From Peptococcaceae bacterium BRH_c8a (GTDB lineage: Bacteria > Bacillota > Desulfotomaculia > Desulfotomaculales > Desulfallaceae): 64,000 nucleotides of DNA. The stretch spans positions 1 through 64,000 of the forward strand of contig LADP01000013.1 in the NCBI GenBank assembly GCA_000961575.1, in the 5' to 3' direction. Below, piece by piece: positions 30,132 through 37,095 of this stretch. How positions within the stretch are numbered: the stretch's first letter is position 1; every line of letters starts with the position of its first letter. The notes beneath the pieces are model-generated. The model was not told the origin of the DNA, searched no databases, and worked only from the letters and a program-made list of their open reading frames with translations. A program made the translations under genes and the position numbers.

Positions 30132-30190
30132 CTTGTCCTCCTAATAATGTTATCAAAGCTATTTTTTGATCATAGCAAAAAAGTAATGAG

Positions 30191-30250
30191 CAGACAAGGG
30201 GACAGGGACTTGTCTGGCGTTAACCAGACAAGTCCCTGTCCCCTTGTCTG
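30191..30250. repeat. CAGACAAG palindromic element (TT type)
   Basis: Matched arms, loop GCGTTAAC, between the divergent guaA-like and metallophosphoesterase genes. Confidence 0.96.
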
Positions 30251-30359
30251 CTCCGTGTCCCTAGGCAGGGAATTTGACGTTAAAACAGGAAAGAATAAGC
30301 AAGTCCTAAAGATAAATGATATCCTAAAGGTTTTAAAAATTACTTTAGGTTGGTGCGTA

Positions 30360-31202
30360 ATGAAAAAATGGCTTGTGTTTTTCTCTTTGATAGTCATAAC
30401 CCTAAGTTTATCAGCCAAGATTTATTTTGATACAAATGTTTTTAAAGTAAATAAAGTTCAGTTTTACAGTAACAAATTACCAGAGGGATCCGAATTTACA
30501 GTTTTGCAAATCAGTGACTTGCATAATAAAGTTTTTGGAGATAACAATGAGCAATTGGTTAACACCGTGGAAAAATTAAATGCCGATATTATTGTTATAA
30601 CAGGTGACCTCGTAGATGAAAGTACCGATAATTTTAAAAATGTTTTTTCCCTCATGGAGAGAATAACGGCCATTAATAATAATGTCTTTTTTGTATCTGG
30701 TAACCATGAGTGGGGAAACGCTTATACCGTGGAGTTTTTAAACGGTCTCCGCGAGCGAAATGTGACAATCTTAAACAACAGAAACATAAAAATCATGGAA
30801 AACAATATAACACTTAATTTAGTTGGGGTTGACGATGTCTCAAGAAATCATGAAAATTCCCCCCAAGCATTCAATAGCGTTTACCAAGACCAATATACCA
30901 TACTGCTTTCTCATTCGCCCGGCATCACGGAAAAATACCATGACCTACGGGCAGACCTGATTTTAAGCGGGCATACTCATGGGGGGCAAGTGAGAATCCC
31001 ATATATCGGTGCATTGGTGGCCCCTAACCAAGGCTTCTTCCCCCAGTTGGATAAAGGAACATACCAAATTGGTCCGAACCAATATCTTTATATTGACAGC
31101 GGCCTTGGTACGAGTATTGCTCCGATACGATTTTTAAATCAAAGTCAGCTAAGTTTAATAAAGATTAAAAACAGACAAGGGGACAGGGACTTGTCTGTTT
31201 AG
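30360..31202 (+). CDS. Membrane-anchored metallophosphoesterase
   Basis: 280 aa from the ATG at 30360; a longer frame from 30147 only reads through the palindromic element. One membrane helix at 4-21, then the calcineurin-like metal motifs DLHNK, GDLVDE, GNHEWG, LSHSPG and GHTHGGQ, a complete two-metal site facing outside. It resembles the YkuE-like phosphodiesterases. The tail NRQGDRDLSV comes from the palindromic element that overlaps the stop. A deleted duplicate lies at 16857. Substrate unknown. Confidence 0.88.
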   Translation: MKKWLVFFSLIVITLSLSAKIYFDTNVFKVNKVQFYSNKLPEGSEFTVLQISDLHNKVFGDNNEQLVNTVEKLNADIIVITGDLVDESTDNFKNVFSLMERITAINNNVFFVSGNHEWGNAYTVEFLNGLRERNVTILNNRNIKIMENNITLNLVGVDDVSRNHENSPQAFNSVYQDQYTILLSHSPGITEKYHDLRADLILSGHTHGGQVRIPYIGALVAPNQGFFPQLDKGTYQIGPNQYLYIDSGLGTSIAPIRFLNQSQLSLIKIKNRQGDRDLSV

Positions 31203-31236
31203 CACAGCAGCAGACAAGTCCCTGTCCCCTTGTCTG
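31172..31236. repeat. CAGACAAG palindromic element (TT type) overlapping a gene end
   Basis: Matched arms, loop TTTAGCACAGCAG. The left arm encodes the last nine residues of the metallophosphoesterase, and the stop TAG lies in the loop. The right arm ends 16 bp before the Imm5-like start. Confidence 0.96.
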
Positions 31237-31252
31237 TTTGGAGGGATGAAAT

Positions 31253-31780
31253 ATGCCAAAAACACGAAAGATGCTAAGCGATTGGAAAGCGCCGTATATT
31301 CATTCGCTTATGAAATTGATTGAAACGCAGAGTAAGTCAACTCTTGCACATTGGGCAGTAGATTATTCCGAGAGAGTTTTATTACCGCTGTGGGACAAGC
31401 ACTACCCAGATGACTTGCGTCTGCATAATGCACTGAATGCCGCTCGGGAGTGGTTATCAGGAGCAATCAAACTGCCACAGGCGAAATCGGTAATCCTCGA
31501 GTGCCATGCGGCCGCCCGTGCAGCCGACGGAAATCCTGTTGCGCAAGCCGCGGCAAGGGCTATTGGTCAATGTGCATCGACCATCCATTCGGCAAGGCAC
31601 TGCATCGGGCTTGCTTTTTATGGAGCGCTAGCGGTCGCTTATGACCGACTCGGGACTGACGCACCGTGGGGACAAATCGAGCATTGCGCCGCAAAAGAGT
31701 GCGGTCGAATGGAAGCCGCCCTTCGTGCCGTTGCCGTGGAGAACGAACCGAACCCGGCAAAAATCGATTGGAAATGCTGA
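31253..31780 (+). CDS. Imm5-like putative immunity protein
   Basis: 175 aa, all-helical. I recognise the general look of the Imm5-type fold: HWAVDYSERVLLPLWDKHYP near 31-50, ARAADGNPVAQAAARAIGQC near 85-104, then the conserved STIHSARHCIGLAFYGALAVAY. Such proteins are annotated as immunity proteins of polymorphic toxin systems, but no toxin is nearby and the ending ENEPNPAKIDWKC is the part duplicated at 34156. GGAGGG precedes the ATG. Cytoplasmic. The function is only inferred. Confidence 0.65.
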   Translation: MPKTRKMLSDWKAPYIHSLMKLIETQSKSTLAHWAVDYSERVLLPLWDKHYPDDLRLHNALNAAREWLSGAIKLPQAKSVILECHAAARAADGNPVAQAAARAIGQCASTIHSARHCIGLAFYGALAVAYDRLGTDAPWGQIEHCAAKECGRMEAALRAVAVENEPNPAKIDWKC

Positions 31781-31815: not shown

Positions 31816-32037
31816 TTGATAACAGGTGAAGGTGTTATTTACAAATATACAAAAGAAGAATTGATAGATGCACTGCGGCCGGTATCTTCAATTATCAGCA
31901 AATGTGAAAAAGCACAGCAAAAATATGCGGAGGGAACCGCTAATCATACCCGCTTCAAGAACATAATAAAAGCAATGTATATTTCAAAATCATTAATAAC
32001 AGAGCAGACAAGGGGACAGGGACTTGTCTGGCGTTAA
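31816..32037 (+). pseudogene. Fragment of an ISKCEK-domain protein
   Basis: One copy of a 50-residue domain (YTKEELIDALRPVSSIISKC then EKAQQKYAEGTANHTRFK and IKAMYISKSLIT), the same as the two domains of the gene at 34273. The sequence just upstream (TTTCAAAATCATTGATAAC) is the end of a preceding domain, so it was cut from a longer tandem gene. A TTG at 31816 could start it. The end (EQTRGQGLVWR) is coded by the palindromic element. Confidence 0.6.
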
Positions 32038-32081: not shown

Positions 32082-33818
32082 TTATACCGCCGGCAACTGC
32101 TTTAGACTCTCGGCCCAGCTAATGATTTCCTCTTTGCTGCCATCCCCGCCGATACTAATGTGAGCACCGTTCTTTTCTATAAAAAGCATTCCCTGTACCC
32201 CCGGTGCGTTAACAGCCACGTAGGTGCCCTTGTCTCCAGCCACCGCCACTTCAACGGTGGGATGGCCCGGCGGGATATTGCCGTGGTACCCTGAGCCCTG
32301 GGTCAGCACTACCTTTGGCAAAGGCTGTCCGGGATTGCGGTATTCCTGGAGAACCACCGGAAAACCAGTCAAGTCTGTCACCCTTACCTCATGCAGCGTA
32401 CAACCGTACTTCTCCGGCAGCACATACATGGGGAAAGGCAGCTCGCGCCGTGCCTCCTCCAGTGAAAGGGTACGGATACTGCCGGCATTGGGCCGGGAAA
32501 CCGTTTGTGTGGTCATTGACTCCGGCAGAGCAAGGTTAAATAATTCTTCCGACAGCCCGCTATTAATCACCAGGTCGGAAACTTCCTTCTTAGCCACCAA
32601 ATTACCTTTAACATCATACTGTTCTTCCAGGACCGGGAACCAGGTTTTTTCTTCCACCCACAGGTGGGTAACCAACTCTCCTCCCGTCACCTGGGGAACA
32701 TCCTGGCTGAATGTAAGGTGATAACATTGGCGTCCCTCCATGTTCTCCCTACCCAACATCGCCACGGTTTGGTTTTGCGACAATGTTTTGACCAGTGCAG
32801 GGAAGTTAGGCAGGAACTGAGCAAAACCTCCATCCTTAAATTCCATACGAACCGCCTGGTTTTGATCCGGGTACATGACAACACATTCGGTATCACGGGC
32901 CACCGCCACTACCCTGCCCGTACCCGGGTGGGTGTATTCCAGACGGTGCATATCCGGGTATTTAAAATAAAGGGTGGCGGATAAGCTGATGGACTGCGAG
33001 CCCATGAACGCCGTTTGCAGCTGGTTGTATCGGTAATCCTGTAATGCATCCTGTAACTTATTCATCTGGTTGGCAATGTCCGCCGAACTGAGTGATATCT
33101 GACCTGTTATACGGTGCAGCACTTTCAAGAATGTTTTCTGGTTCTCCACTCTTTTACATAATACCGGGTCGGCATTAATCTTTTTTTCAAATTCTGCAGT
33201 TTCCGTGGCGATTAAACGTCCTTCTAGATAGTCATAAATGAGTTCTTCAATGGTTCTTTCCGTCATTGGTATCCGCTCCTTTTTTACAGGGGCAAAATTT
33301 TGTAACGCCCGGCGCAGGATCTCTCTACCCCGGTGCAGCCTGGATTTGACGGTGCCGGCGGGAACACCCAGGATTTCGGCGATTTCCCCAATCTTGTAAC
33401 CCCGCACATCGCCTAATACCACCACATCCTGGTACTTCGGGCTCAGGGCGCGAAGTGCCCGGTAAAACTCGGCCCGGAAGGCCGCCGTTTCAGCGGGATC
33501 GACCTGTTGTGATTTATCAAGCGGGGTATCACCGTCGTATATCTCTCCAGGGGATTCTCGCCGGCCGGCCCGCAAGGTAAGGAAAACCTCATTGGTCACC
33601 AGCCTGTTGAACCATGCCGGGAAGCTTACCGGATCACGCAGATCCTTCAGGGAGCGCAGCATTTTGAGCAATGCGTTCTGCACTGCGTCATCGGCCAGAA
33701 CCTGATCTCTGAGCATCCGGCGGGCAATTTTTTTGGCCCTTGGGTACACGTCCTTAACCAGTGCCTCCCACGCATCGACTTCACCTTCCCTGCACCGCGC
33801 TATAATATCCGCCTGCAT
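32082..33818 (-). CDS. ECF sigma factor fused to an anti-sigma/LolA-like domain
   Basis: 578 aa. Residues 1-175 are a complete ECF sigma factor: region 2 with DQVLADDAVQNALLKML and region 4 with LSPKYQDVVVLGDVRGYKIG and VPAGTVKSRLHRG. Then follow a short helical segment (TIEELIYDYLEGRLIATETA) like the start of anti-sigma factors, and a beta-rich LolA/DUF4367-like part (about 250-578). No membrane helix joins them. An in-frame ATG at 33266 has AAGGAG 9 bp before it, so the second part may also be made on its own. Two formerly separate genes probably fused by loss of a stop. Confidence 0.75.
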   Translation of the reverse strand: MQADIIARCREGEVDAWEALVKDVYPRAKKIARRMLRDQVLADDAVQNALLKMLRSLKDLRDPVSFPAWFNRLVTNEVFLTLRAGRRESPGEIYDGDTPLDKSQQVDPAETAAFRAEFYRALRALSPKYQDVVVLGDVRGYKIGEIAEILGVPAGTVKSRLHRGREILRRALQNFAPVKKERIPMTERTIEELIYDYLEGRLIATETAEFEKKINADPVLCKRVENQKTFLKVLHRITGQISLSSADIANQMNKLQDALQDYRYNQLQTAFMGSQSISLSATLYFKYPDMHRLEYTHPGTGRVVAVARDTECVVMYPDQNQAVRMEFKDGGFAQFLPNFPALVKTLSQNQTVAMLGRENMEGRQCYHLTFSQDVPQVTGGELVTHLWVEEKTWFPVLEEQYDVKGNLVAKKEVSDLVINSGLSEELFNLALPESMTTQTVSRPNAGSIRTLSLEEARRELPFPMYVLPEKYGCTLHEVRVTDLTGFPVVLQEYRNPGQPLPKVVLTQGSGYHGNIPPGHPTVEVAVAGDKGTYVAVNAPGVQGMLFIEKNGAHISIGGDGSKEEIISWAESLKQLPAV

Positions 33819-34155
33819 TTTAATCAGCCCCCAATATTGTCATTCAATAGAGAGGATACAACCACCGCTCAAATGGTTCCCTAAAAACTCCACACTATAG
33901 GACAATTAGTTCATAGTAGCGACTGCCTAATCCGATTTCTTCTCCGTAAGATAATTGGATCGTTCCGTCTATGTGTGATCTCAAACAATGAAATTAGTGA
34001 CTACCAACAATAGCTTAATATAAAATTTATAAGCTAGCATGGGAATGGACAAATATTAAAGGAACTCCTGGAACTTTACTTTTATGATATAATTATACCC
34101 CAAAAAGAGTGATACACTTGGCTGAACACGACCTGATTATCAAGGCATTGGCCGC
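33819..34155. other. Non-coding stretch
   Basis: About 340 bp upstream of the sigma-factor gene with no convincing gene. A TTG at 34118 opens a short reading LAEHDLIIKALAARY that resembles a gene start and then joins the Imm5-like remnant. A TATAAT-like sequence is near 34085. Nothing else is recognised. Confidence 0.4.
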
Positions 34156-34218: not shown

Positions 34219-34272
34219 CCATGATCCGCCGGGGACCAGGACATTTTGTGTGAAAATCAGGGGAGTGATGTA

Positions 34273-34707
34273 ATGGACACATTTACAAGAGAAGAATTAG
34301 AAGAAGCTATACAACTTGTTTCTTCAACCATCAGCAGATGTGAAAAAACACAGCCCAAATTTGTGGAGGGTACCTCTCAGCATACACTCCTTAAGAACAG
34401 GATAAAAGCATTATACATTTCAAAATCATTGATAGCAGATAAGAATGTTATGGACAAATATACAAAAGAAGAGTTGATGGTAGCACTGCGACCCATATCT
34501 TCAATAATCAGCAAATGTGAAAAAGCACAGCAAAAATTTGCGGAGGGTACCTCTCATCACACCCGCTTCCAGAAAATGATAAAAGCAATGTATATTTCAA
34601 AATCATTGATAACCGATGAGATTAGTAAAAGAGATGGCTACGGTAGCTCCCGAAGGGCCGGTGCCGACAATTATGACATCCCAACCAGCCCGGCAACCAG
34701 AAGGTAG
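34273..34707 (+). CDS. Tandem ISKCEK-domain protein
   Basis: 144 aa from the ATG at 34273, preceded by GGGGAG. Two copies of one 50-residue helical domain: FTREELEEAIQLVSSTISRC at 4-23 and YTKEELMVALRPISSIISKC at 61-80, each followed by EKxQxKFxEGTSxHT and IKAxYISKSLI. I have a general impression of small Firmicute proteins with this pattern but know no function. The last 28 residues are junk, antisense to a flavoprotein remnant, so the original end is lost. Confidence 0.6.
   Translation: MDTFTREELEEAIQLVSSTISRCEKTQPKFVEGTSQHTLLKNRIKALYISKSLIADKNVMDKYTKEELMVALRPISSIISKCEKAQQKFAEGTSHHTRFQKMIKAMYISKSLITDEISKRDGYGSSRRAGADNYDIPTSPATRR
34621..34683 (-). pseudogene. FAD-binding N-terminus remnant
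   Basis: The minus strand reads WDVIIVGTGPSGATVAISF, the GxGxxG dinucleotide-binding start of a flavoprotein. No start codon or continuation is present. It overlaps the 3' end of the ISKCEK gene in antisense. Confidence 0.55.
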
Positions 34708-34948: not shown

Positions 34949-34971
34949 TATATGGCATGTCCTTTTTTCAA

Positions 34972-35039
34972 CAGACAAGGGGACAGGGACCTGTCTGTTA
35001 GGCACGAGCAGAGCAGACAAGTCCCTGTCCCCTTGTCTG
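34972..35039. repeat. CAGACAAG palindromic element (mixed arms)
   Basis: The left arm is CC type (GACCTG) and the right arm TT type (CAAGTC), so two pairs in the stem are mismatched. Loop TTAGGCACGAGCAGAG. It abuts the promoter side of the peptide unit. Confidence 0.95.
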
Positions 35040-35109
35040 TTTCCCCAAAAGGGAACCAGTGAAACGGTTGCTGCTTTATTAAGCACACAAAATAAAACAG
35101 ATTAAATGC

Positions 35110-35778
35110 TCATTTTCTGGAGACTAACAGATTACCCTGGGTATCCAGCTCAGCTAAGGCCACTTCTTTGCTGAATTCCTTTATGCCCTGGTAACTTAAC
35201 GCGCTTAAAAGCCAGTCCTTGGTCAAGTTAGCATGGCGAAGATTATTCTCTAAAATGGACCCATCCATGACCAGGGGCAAAGTAAGTCCCTCGTATTGGG
35301 TTGGAACATTCAAGTCACTGGGGTTAACAGGTCTTTTTTGGGACTTGGGAAAGGCCGATAGCCTCCCCTGAGGCTCCAGGACAGCAAACTCAACATCGGT
35401 TAACTTATCGTATCCTTTTGCCCGCAGCAAACCCATAAACTGGTTCAAACTCAAAGAAGTTGCCTTTAATGCCGACATATCCAACTGACCGTTTTTGACG
35501 ACCACAGTTGGTGAATGCTCCATAATTGGGGTAAGTTTGTTGAAAATGGCCAGGTGTGAGGTCATCCAAATAAGAAAAATTAGCAGGCCCGTTCCATAGA
35601 CGGCCCTCATAGTTACTTTTGTTACCAACGGTTCGGCAGCCACATTTGACAATATAAAAATCCCGGCTATCTCATAAGCCGTCATTTCTGCTATGGCTTT
35701 TTTTGTTAATACGCGGGCACCAAAGTAGGCTAAAAGAAAGATTATAATTACCTTCGTCCCGTAGGTAAGCAATTCCAC
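35110..35778 (-). CDS. DUF421 membrane protein (operon gene 3)
   Basis: 222 aa from a GTG start with AGGGAGG upstream. Three N-terminal membrane helices (VIIIFLLAYFGARVL, AGIFILSNVAAEPLV, VYGTGLLIFLIWMTS), then the DUF421 domain with LEPQGRLSAFPKSQKRPV near 132 and LPLVMDGSILENNLR near 167. It follows DUF4363 by 15 bp in an operon that spore formers keep as DUF421-DUF4363-DUF421. A role in the spore or envelope is likely but not established. Confidence 0.85.
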   Translation of the reverse strand: MELLTYGTKVIIIFLLAYFGARVLTKKAIAEMTAYEIAGIFILSNVAAEPLVTKVTMRAVYGTGLLIFLIWMTSHLAIFNKLTPIMEHSPTVVVKNGQLDMSALKATSLSLNQFMGLLRAKGYDKLTDVEFAVLEPQGRLSAFPKSQKRPVNPSDLNVPTQYEGLTLPLVMDGSILENNLRHANLTKDWLLSALSYQGIKEFSKEVALAELDTQGNLLVSRK

Positions 35779-35793
35779 TTTCGGTTAACCTCC

Positions 35794-36174
35794 CTAAATG
35801 CCTGAAAATACCGTGGTTATGGTTCGAACTTCTTCTCTTAACCCGCCAATTTGAGTTATTACATCATCTTCTTGGTTTTTCACTAAAACGGCAGCTTCAT
35901 TTAATTCACGTCGGAAAGTGCTTAAATCCTCAGGAGAGTTTGTGACTCTGATTAAGAATTCATTGGCCATGAAGGTATTATTTAACAAAGAAATTTCGGC
36001 CCCTGCCTGTTCCCAGTCTTCCTGGATAACGCTGCTTTCGAGTCTATCCAGGGCCGATAGCATAATTTTATTTGGGTCGTTTAATCCAACGTTAAATCCG
36101 TACCACATAAACCCGACTGTTACTACCCAGACCAGGGCCAACCAAAGACGGATTTTTTCCCGGTCAAAATACAT
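35794..36174 (-). CDS. DUF4363 protein (operon gene 2)
   Basis: 126 aa with one N-terminal membrane segment (LWLALVWVVTVGFMWYG at 10-26) and a helical domain outside, with the family's W-x-x-A-x-x-x-x-x-x-L and FxRxL-like spacing. GGGAGGTGAAAAG precedes the ATG. It lies between two DUF421 genes and probably forms a complex with their products. Confidence 0.8.
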   Translation of the reverse strand: MYFDREKIRLWLALVWVVTVGFMWYGFNVGLNDPNKIMLSALDRLESSVIQEDWEQAGAEISLLNNTFMANEFLIRVTNSPEDLSTFRRELNEAAVLVKNQEDDVITQIGGLREEVRTITTVFSGI

Positions 36175-36204
36175 CTTTTCACCTCCCGGATTTAAAGGCC
36201 ACCG

Positions 36205-36933
36205 CTAGGATGCAGTTCTCTCTGAAGCTGAATTCTTAAGGCTATAATATAATTTCCCCTGCGTGTCAAGCATTGCAGCAAGAACATCTTTAGGGGAACT
36301 TATGTTGAAATTTTTTAGTTGCTCATAAAGCCACTTTTCAGATAAATTGTTTCTCTTTAAATTTTCATTAATAATGTTGCCGTCTTCAATAAGCATGGTA
36401 GGGTACCCTTCATATTTTGTTGCTAAACCCAAGTCCTGAGGTGTTACAGCTCTATTCTGGGATTTTGGCAGGACGCTTATTTTACCTTCTGGTTCAAGGA
36501 TGGCAAACTCAACTTGTCCTAAAAAGAAATAACCTCTAATCCTTAATTGTGACATCAGATCATCAAGATTAATCCTGGTTTTCTTCATGGCCTGTTCAAG
36601 AAGCTTGCCGTTTTGCACTAAAATTATAGGTTCTTCCTCTACAACTCTTCTTAACCTAGAAAACTTTAATGATAAAATACTTAAAATTATTTGAAAAACA
36701 GCCAGTGCGCCCACCGTTATCATTACCCCACCAAGACCGCTGGTACTGCTGCTGAGCGCACCGGCCGCGGTGCTTCCGATTATAATACTTATAATGAAGT
36801 CAAAAAGGGTGAGCCTGCCGATTTCCCTCTGCCCCATTAGCTTGGCTAATAATAATAAGTAAAAATATATAACCGCTACCCTTGCTAGCCACTGTATTGC
36901 GGTAAGACTTTGTTGGGCTTCCCAAAAAGGCAT
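36205..36933 (-). CDS. DUF421 membrane protein (operon gene 1)
   Basis: 242 aa. Three N-terminal membrane helices; the central motif REIGRLTLFDFIISIIIGST at 36-55 is the classic YetF signature, and LEPEGKISVLPKSQNRAVTP near 149-168 belongs to the cytoplasmic domain. TAAGGAGG precedes the ATG, so the operon's promoter should lie in 36950-37166, which also holds a palindromic element. Closer to the 35110 protein than to the 7585 one. Confidence 0.88.
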   Translation of the reverse strand: MPFWEAQQSLTAIQWLARVAVIYFYLLLLAKLMGQREIGRLTLFDFIISIIIGSTAAGALSSSTSGLGGVMITVGALAVFQIILSILSLKFSRLRRVVEEEPIILVQNGKLLEQAMKKTRINLDDLMSQLRIRGYFFLGQVEFAILEPEGKISVLPKSQNRAVTPQDLGLATKYEGYPTMLIEDGNIINENLKRNNLSEKWLYEQLKNFNISSPKDVLAAMLDTQGKLYYSLKNSASERTAS

Positions 36934-37010
36934 ATTACTAAGTTCCTCCTTACGGCGTTTAGGTTATATGTTACCCGTTGAAATTGTTTTTATAGGTTGG
37001 GGCGTAGAAC

Positions 37011-37095
37011 CAGACAAGGGGACAGGGACTTGTCTGCTGCTATGAAAGGCAGACAAGTCCCTGTCCCCTTGTCTGGTCCTTGTCTGGTCTGTCTG
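37011..37095. repeat. CAGACAAG palindromic element (TT type) with extra units
   Basis: Core 37011-37075 with matched arms around CTGCTATGAAAGG; two worn units (GTCCTTGTCTG, GTCTGTCTG) extend the right side. It lies between the divergent DUF421 operon and the helicase gene. Confidence 0.95.

Follow-up and report, generated by a model that had tools for sequence, protein, structure and literature searches.

The window, the whole 64,000-nucleotide stretch of the Peptococcaceae bacterium BRH_c8a genome that was analysed (contig LADP01000013.1, positions 1 to 64,000), carries on its reverse strand a gene in which an ECF sigma factor runs into a putative anti-sigma domain (ASD) and a LolA-like region. 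The gene and its signals comprise the following features.

32082-33818, reverse strand: fused open reading frame with an ATG start, 578 aa (ECF sigma, zincless anti-sigma, LolA/RseB-like and DUF4367-like parts)
33291-33818, reverse strand: ECF sigma part, aa 1-176, with regions 2 and 4 and without region 3 (Pfam, TIGR02937)
33033-33266, reverse strand: putative zincless class I anti-sigma domain, aa 185-262 (hhalign and weak zf-HC2 matches)
32517-33068, reverse strand: putative LolA/RseB-like domain, aa 251-434, without a signal peptide (PF17131, PF03888)
32097-32471, reverse strand: DUF4367-like C-terminal region, aa 450-574 (PF14285; assigned in the window copy by alignment)
33276-33281, reverse strand: internal Shine-Dalgarno sequence AAGGAG, read directly
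33264-33266, reverse strand: internal in-frame ATG (Met185), starting at 33266, 9 nt past the Shine-Dalgarno sequence, read directly
33828-33832, reverse strand: GGGGG, weak Shine-Dalgarno candidate for the full-length start, read directly
33853-33880, reverse strand: ECF-type promoter motif GGAACCATTT-N13-ATCCT, 34 nt upstream of the start codon

The reading frame was open along its whole 578 aa. Within the sigma part, Sigma70_r2 (aa 20-87) and Sigma70_r4_2 (aa 116-166) scored above the Pfam cut-offs and TIGR02937 (sigma70-ECF) matched above cut-off with an E-value of 1.8e-24; regions 2 and 4 were found and region 3 was absent, as in ECF sigma factors. Neither the window copy nor the members of its family gave a Pfam match to a SnoaL_2 or TPR extension of the ECF41/42/56 type. 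Searched singly, the second part of the window copy produced no strong Pfam match: LolA_like reached 21.4 bits (cut-off 30) and MucB_RseB 16.2 bits (cut-off 22.3), both below the curated values. Across the family, LolA_like (PF17131) was matched in 14/14 members (best E 3.4e-6), MucB_RseB (PF03888) likewise in 14/14 (best E 5.1e-4) and DUF4367 (PF14285) in 6/14 (best E 1.5e-5), the last not being reported for the window copy; weak zf-HC2 matches appeared in four of the 14. These sub-cut-off and profile matches point to a LolA/RseB-like domain. A search of solved structures with the second part returned no convincing match, and AlphaFold models of the window protein and of a homolog on a viral contig (mean pLDDT 38 and 43) were too poor for use.

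The first 78 columns past the internal start aligned with the canonical zf-HC2 anti-sigma domains of ECF operons at an hhalign E-value of 1.4e-5, against 0.06-0.4 for eight further segments taken from that alignment, which places this segment among the class I ASDs by homology to their helical region. The positions of the Hx3Cx2C zinc motif are replaced in all 14 aligned members, and many ASDs without this motif are known (PMC7406223). Because helix 1 of an ASD contacts sigma4 and helix 4 contacts sigma2 (PMC7406223), an ASD tethered just past sigma4 could work in cis; these contacts are compatible with a short linker after sigma4, as a matter of geometry rather than proof. The domain is thus a putative inhibitor of the sigma factor to which it is joined. 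Alternatively, the C-terminal part might be an activator, with the LolA-like tail needed for sigma activity or serving as a scaffold and a free form acting as competitor, much as parts of the C-terminal extensions of ECF41 and CorE are required for activity (PMC8999054). We regard this as improbable, since the profile match of the N-terminal stretch of this part is specific to class I anti-sigma domains.

Self-inhibition was among the possibilities raised by the first-pass annotation, which had described an ECF sigma factor running without a stop into a soluble anti-sigma-like and LolA-like region. The open frame and the Pfam and hhalign matches bear out the first half of this description, and hydropathy bears out the second: the window protein has no transmembrane (TM) helix, its highest 19-residue Kyte-Doolittle mean being 0.96. 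In complete homologs the corresponding maximum was at most 1.53, with the exception of L080, where a hydrophobic stretch at residue 33 precedes the sigma domain within a 5′-extended reading frame. Most stand-alone relatives from the phylum with a readable N-terminus begin with a hydrophobic, signal-like segment. No such sign of export was found in the fusion, in which sigma occupies the N-terminus and no TM segment is present. Since sigma leads and the hydrophobic segment is absent, export of the fusion is implausible, and therefore the LolA-like sensor most likely faces the cytoplasm. A match on a Haladaptatus plasmid proved to be a stand-alone protein annotated as lipoprotein-sorting, with no annotated sigma beside it, and was set aside.

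Further intact fusions were identified in two other bacterial families, 24 in number, giving 25 bacterial genes with the window copy; the first fused relatives outside the class came from two genomes elsewhere in the phylum, both in frame, and the count of 24 includes the other genomes of their order. A 26th fusion lies on a phage contig (IMG/VR 3300050190_000178, L134 2992-4722). The fusions form about seven deep lineages with 31-45% identity, the nearest relatives of the window copy being L038/L062 at about 39%, and in one genus several fusion paralogs occur per genome. Among 113 genomes of the same order, the second part was found in none but the window genome, and a search of the class gave the same set. 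A collection of genome contigs likewise held no close relative of the window protein, only a generic ECF, and among the matches listed for GenBank phages the sigma part alone was covered. Two further long open frames from the same order that matched sigma (G022, G025) were rejected as ordinary adjacent sigma and anti-sigma genes.

That no other of the 113 genomes of the class carries such a copy might suggest that two ordinary genes have become joined, in this genome only, through a lost stop codon or a sequencing error. This explanation is rejected, and its probability is practically nil, as the fusion is intact in many independent genomes as well as on a phage contig. The same fusions exclude the stop or frameshift at the joint that the first-pass annotation had named as fatal to its proposal, and the search for split orthologs that it had recommended returned none split at the joint, the copies in G496, G519 and G517 being broken elsewhere.

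At the joint, the window copy reads ...GTA AAA AAG GAG CGG ATA CCA ATG ACG..., so that AAGGAG stands 9 nt before an in-frame ATG at 33266, exactly as first annotated. At the full-length start of the window gene, by comparison, no match of at least 4 nt to AAGGAGGT was found, and in the other carrier genomes the full-length starts are mostly GTG or TTG with a Shine-Dalgarno sequence of 4 nt or none. Direct reading showed a Shine-Dalgarno sequence with an in-frame ATG or GTG at the joint of all 26 fused homologs. In most of them this is AAGGAG or AGGGAG at 9 nt from ATG or GTG; L039/L080, a lineage with a longer linker, has a moved site that consists of GGGGAG at 7 nt from GTG. These signals are consistent with the earlier proposal that the cell may make a second product from the internal start, so that two proteins could arise from the gene.

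In the 25 bacterial frames (14,844 codons), an in-frame ATG with a Shine-Dalgarno match of at least 6 nt was present at the joint in 20 cases and nowhere else. A script applied to the frames of all 26 fused homologs found comparable sites in 26 of 2370 background windows of 40 codons and in 24 of 26 joint windows, two joints being missed because it was anchored on the string YLE; the homologous sequences behind both counts are not independent. Shuffling of synonymous codons within single genes gave p values of 0.03-0.25 each (Fisher p 0.008 over 7), which are weak because the K-E codons at the joint often spell AAGGAG anyway. Ranking of Shine-Dalgarno sites by duplex energy placed the joint best or near-best in most frames, though not in the window copy. 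The case for an internal start therefore rests on recurrence across diverged lineages, with switches from ATG to GTG and one moved site.

The same K-E codons lend some credit to the alternative that the full fusion is the sole product, the Shine-Dalgarno sequence and methionine at the joint being remnants of an ancestral two-gene operon or constrained by the protein, and sigma being held by its own tail until a ligand, or proteolysis of the linker, frees it; fused sigma/anti-sigma proteins acting via proteolysis are known, as in IutY (PMC8999054). Remnants should decay at 31-45% identity, however, whereas the Shine-Dalgarno sequence, its spacing and the start are kept in 26/26 homologs while the neighbouring residues vary, and valine at the start position is always encoded as GTG. 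We consider this alternative unlikely. More unlikely by far is that ribosomes undergo a programmed shift to the -1 frame at A AAA AAG (33279-33285) and so produce free sigma from the window copy. The heptamer is of the dnaX slippery type, stands in the correct frame and overlaps the internal Shine-Dalgarno sequence, but only in the window copy; homologs have CCA AAG GAG or CGA AAG GAG instead.

Internal initiation is also in keeping with the position of the start, as the internal methionine aligns with the point at which class I anti-sigma domains usually begin. In ordinary sigma/anti-sigma pairs of the same class the two are separate adjacent genes, the anti-sigma gene starting at the equivalent point, and a history of gene fusion is therefore likely: a sigma/anti-sigma pair would have become fused and lost its TM helix while retaining the second start.

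Upstream of the gene or operon, each lineage examined has GGAACY followed by ATCYT at fixed spacing (ATC from motif position 24). The motif precedes the gene itself in the window, G115, G382, G497 (one mismatch) and the phage copy (as ATCTA), and in another clade it stands, with one mismatch, before a transporter-fusion operon. In one clade, upstream similarity ends just outside a block beginning around GGAACTTTTTAACC. The exact pattern, which was built with the window sequence included so that the count is not blind, has a single match in the window's 4.17-Mb genome, namely the motif of the fused gene, and matches with one mismatch elsewhere in the genome were at control level in a search for a regulon. 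Conservation of the motif before the gene or operon, together with the single exact match, suggests autoregulation. The simplest reading is that sigma, putatively using a GGAAC-type -35 promoter, transcribes its own operon and has few other targets.

In two lineages the fusion is linked to an exporter. In G382/G537 the genes for an ABC ATPase and an ABC-2 permease come after it, and in one clade of the paralog-rich genus the same ATPase/permease pair, with a small membrane protein, precedes it; the ATPases and permeases are 45% and 43% identical between the two lineages. The exporter permease had no match in the window genome, and therefore the exporter is either optional or works with another partner there.

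Taken together, the data suggest a one-gene, two-product sigma/anti-sigma module that is self-transcribed, uses internal initiation and carries a cytoplasmic LolA-like sensor, a reading that we favour and hold to be reasonably probable. Sigma would start its own transcription at the conserved GGAACY...ATCYT promoter, and the mRNA would yield both the full fusion (sigma, tethered anti-sigma domain and LolA-like sensor) and, from the strong internal Shine-Dalgarno sequence and ATG, a free anti-sigma/LolA-like protein, placing the inhibitor in excess of sigma. The anti-sigma domain, acting in cis or from a free copy, would cover sigma regions 2 and 4. As to ligand and release, our guess is that a cytoplasmic, probably lipophilic compound enters the LolA-like pocket and relieves inhibition, whereupon the released sigma would boost its own operon, including the ABC-2 exporter in some lineages. 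A cytoplasmic LolA/RseB-type domain could in this manner signal the presence of a lipophilic compound and the linked exporter remove it.

The family shares features with several known systems. IutY-type hybrids of Pseudomonas putida (ECF243; PMC5411451, PMC8999054) also hold an ECF sigma factor and an anti-sigma in a single polypeptide, but they have a single TM segment between sigma and sensor as well as a periplasmic portion, and are released by Prc/RseP, whereas the window family lacks a TM segment; searching the text of the IutY paper (PMC5411451) for internal translation gave no result. ECF48, ECF52 and ECF53 bear an anti-sigma-like domain C-terminal to the ECF sigma (PMC8999054), yet are actinobacterial, with zinc fingers and TM helices, where the window family is zincless, soluble and LolA-like. 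Cytoplasmic regulatory tails on ECF sigma factors are known from ECF41, ECF42, ECF56 and CorE (PMC3426412, PMC8999054), but these are SnoaL-like, TPR or Cys-rich metal-binding tails rather than an ASD with a LolA-like domain. Ordinary operons such as L185 and L186 resemble the fusion in that sigma is followed directly by the anti-sigma start, and differ in having separate genes and an anti-sigma with the zinc motif and a hydrophobic, TM-like segment. In the RseA/RseB-MucB system, the LolA-fold regulator RseB/MucB acts on the anti-sigma as a separate periplasmic protein; in the window family the LolA-like part is predicted to be cytoplasmic and is covalently joined to sigma.

Most known fused sigma/anti-sigma proteins are membrane-bound, with proteolysis as their presumed means of release. 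This family is soluble, keeps its internal start in about seven lineages and has its own putative promoter of almost private sequence. In the open-access papers searched we found no sigma fused to an ASD and a LolA-like domain, although the family may already have an ECF group number, and no sigma fusion with a conserved internal start. The gene may offer a compact natural example of an inhibitor-to-sigma ratio set by internal initiation and, if the reading is true, would be, to the extent of our search, the first sigma system in which two start codons within a single frame determine the ratio of switch to brake.

Several observations bear on mobility. The window gene has 52.8% GC compared with 44.6% for the window, and because of this deviation and of the failure to find the second part in sister species, it was probably acquired horizontally; comparison with sister species for an empty site showed rearranged flanks. 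On the phage contig, the fusion lies antisense between the genes for portal (phrog_12) and terminase large subunit (phrog_9), a placement like that of a phage cargo gene and possibly of lysogenic cargo. In one clade, copies of 580 aa that are about 90% identical (L118-L131) occur in unrelated contexts across species, as if the gene moves by itself. More tentatively than the module itself, we propose a mobile self-transcribing gene, carried also by a temperate phage, whose single frame would encode a cytoplasm-sensing sigma and, through conserved internal initiation, surplus anti-sigma, and whose LolA-type lipid pocket would function in the cytoplasm.

The surroundings of the window gene contain the following features.

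31253-31780: Imm-5-like putative immunity protein, adjoining the fused gene (PF21805, E 3.2e-37)
31816-32037 and 34246-34707: small open reading frames flanking the fused gene, with a common unit of ~60 aa
31999-32067, 30188-30256, 31172-31239, 34970-35041 and 37008-37075: copies of a palindromic repeat
35067-36998: DUF421 - DUF4363-like - DUF421 gene block

The ~60-aa unit (YTKEELxxALRPxSSIISKCEKAQQKxAEGT...) is duplicated within 34246-34707, and neither small frame had a Pfam match. The palindromic repeat, of 65-80 nt and GACAAGGGGACAGGGACTTGTCT type, recurs dozens of times across the genome; the fused gene has one copy immediately on its 3′ side, and another lies inside the frame of the ORF at 30147-31202. 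The DUF421 block has a 96% identical copy at G000:C40:175775-177708.
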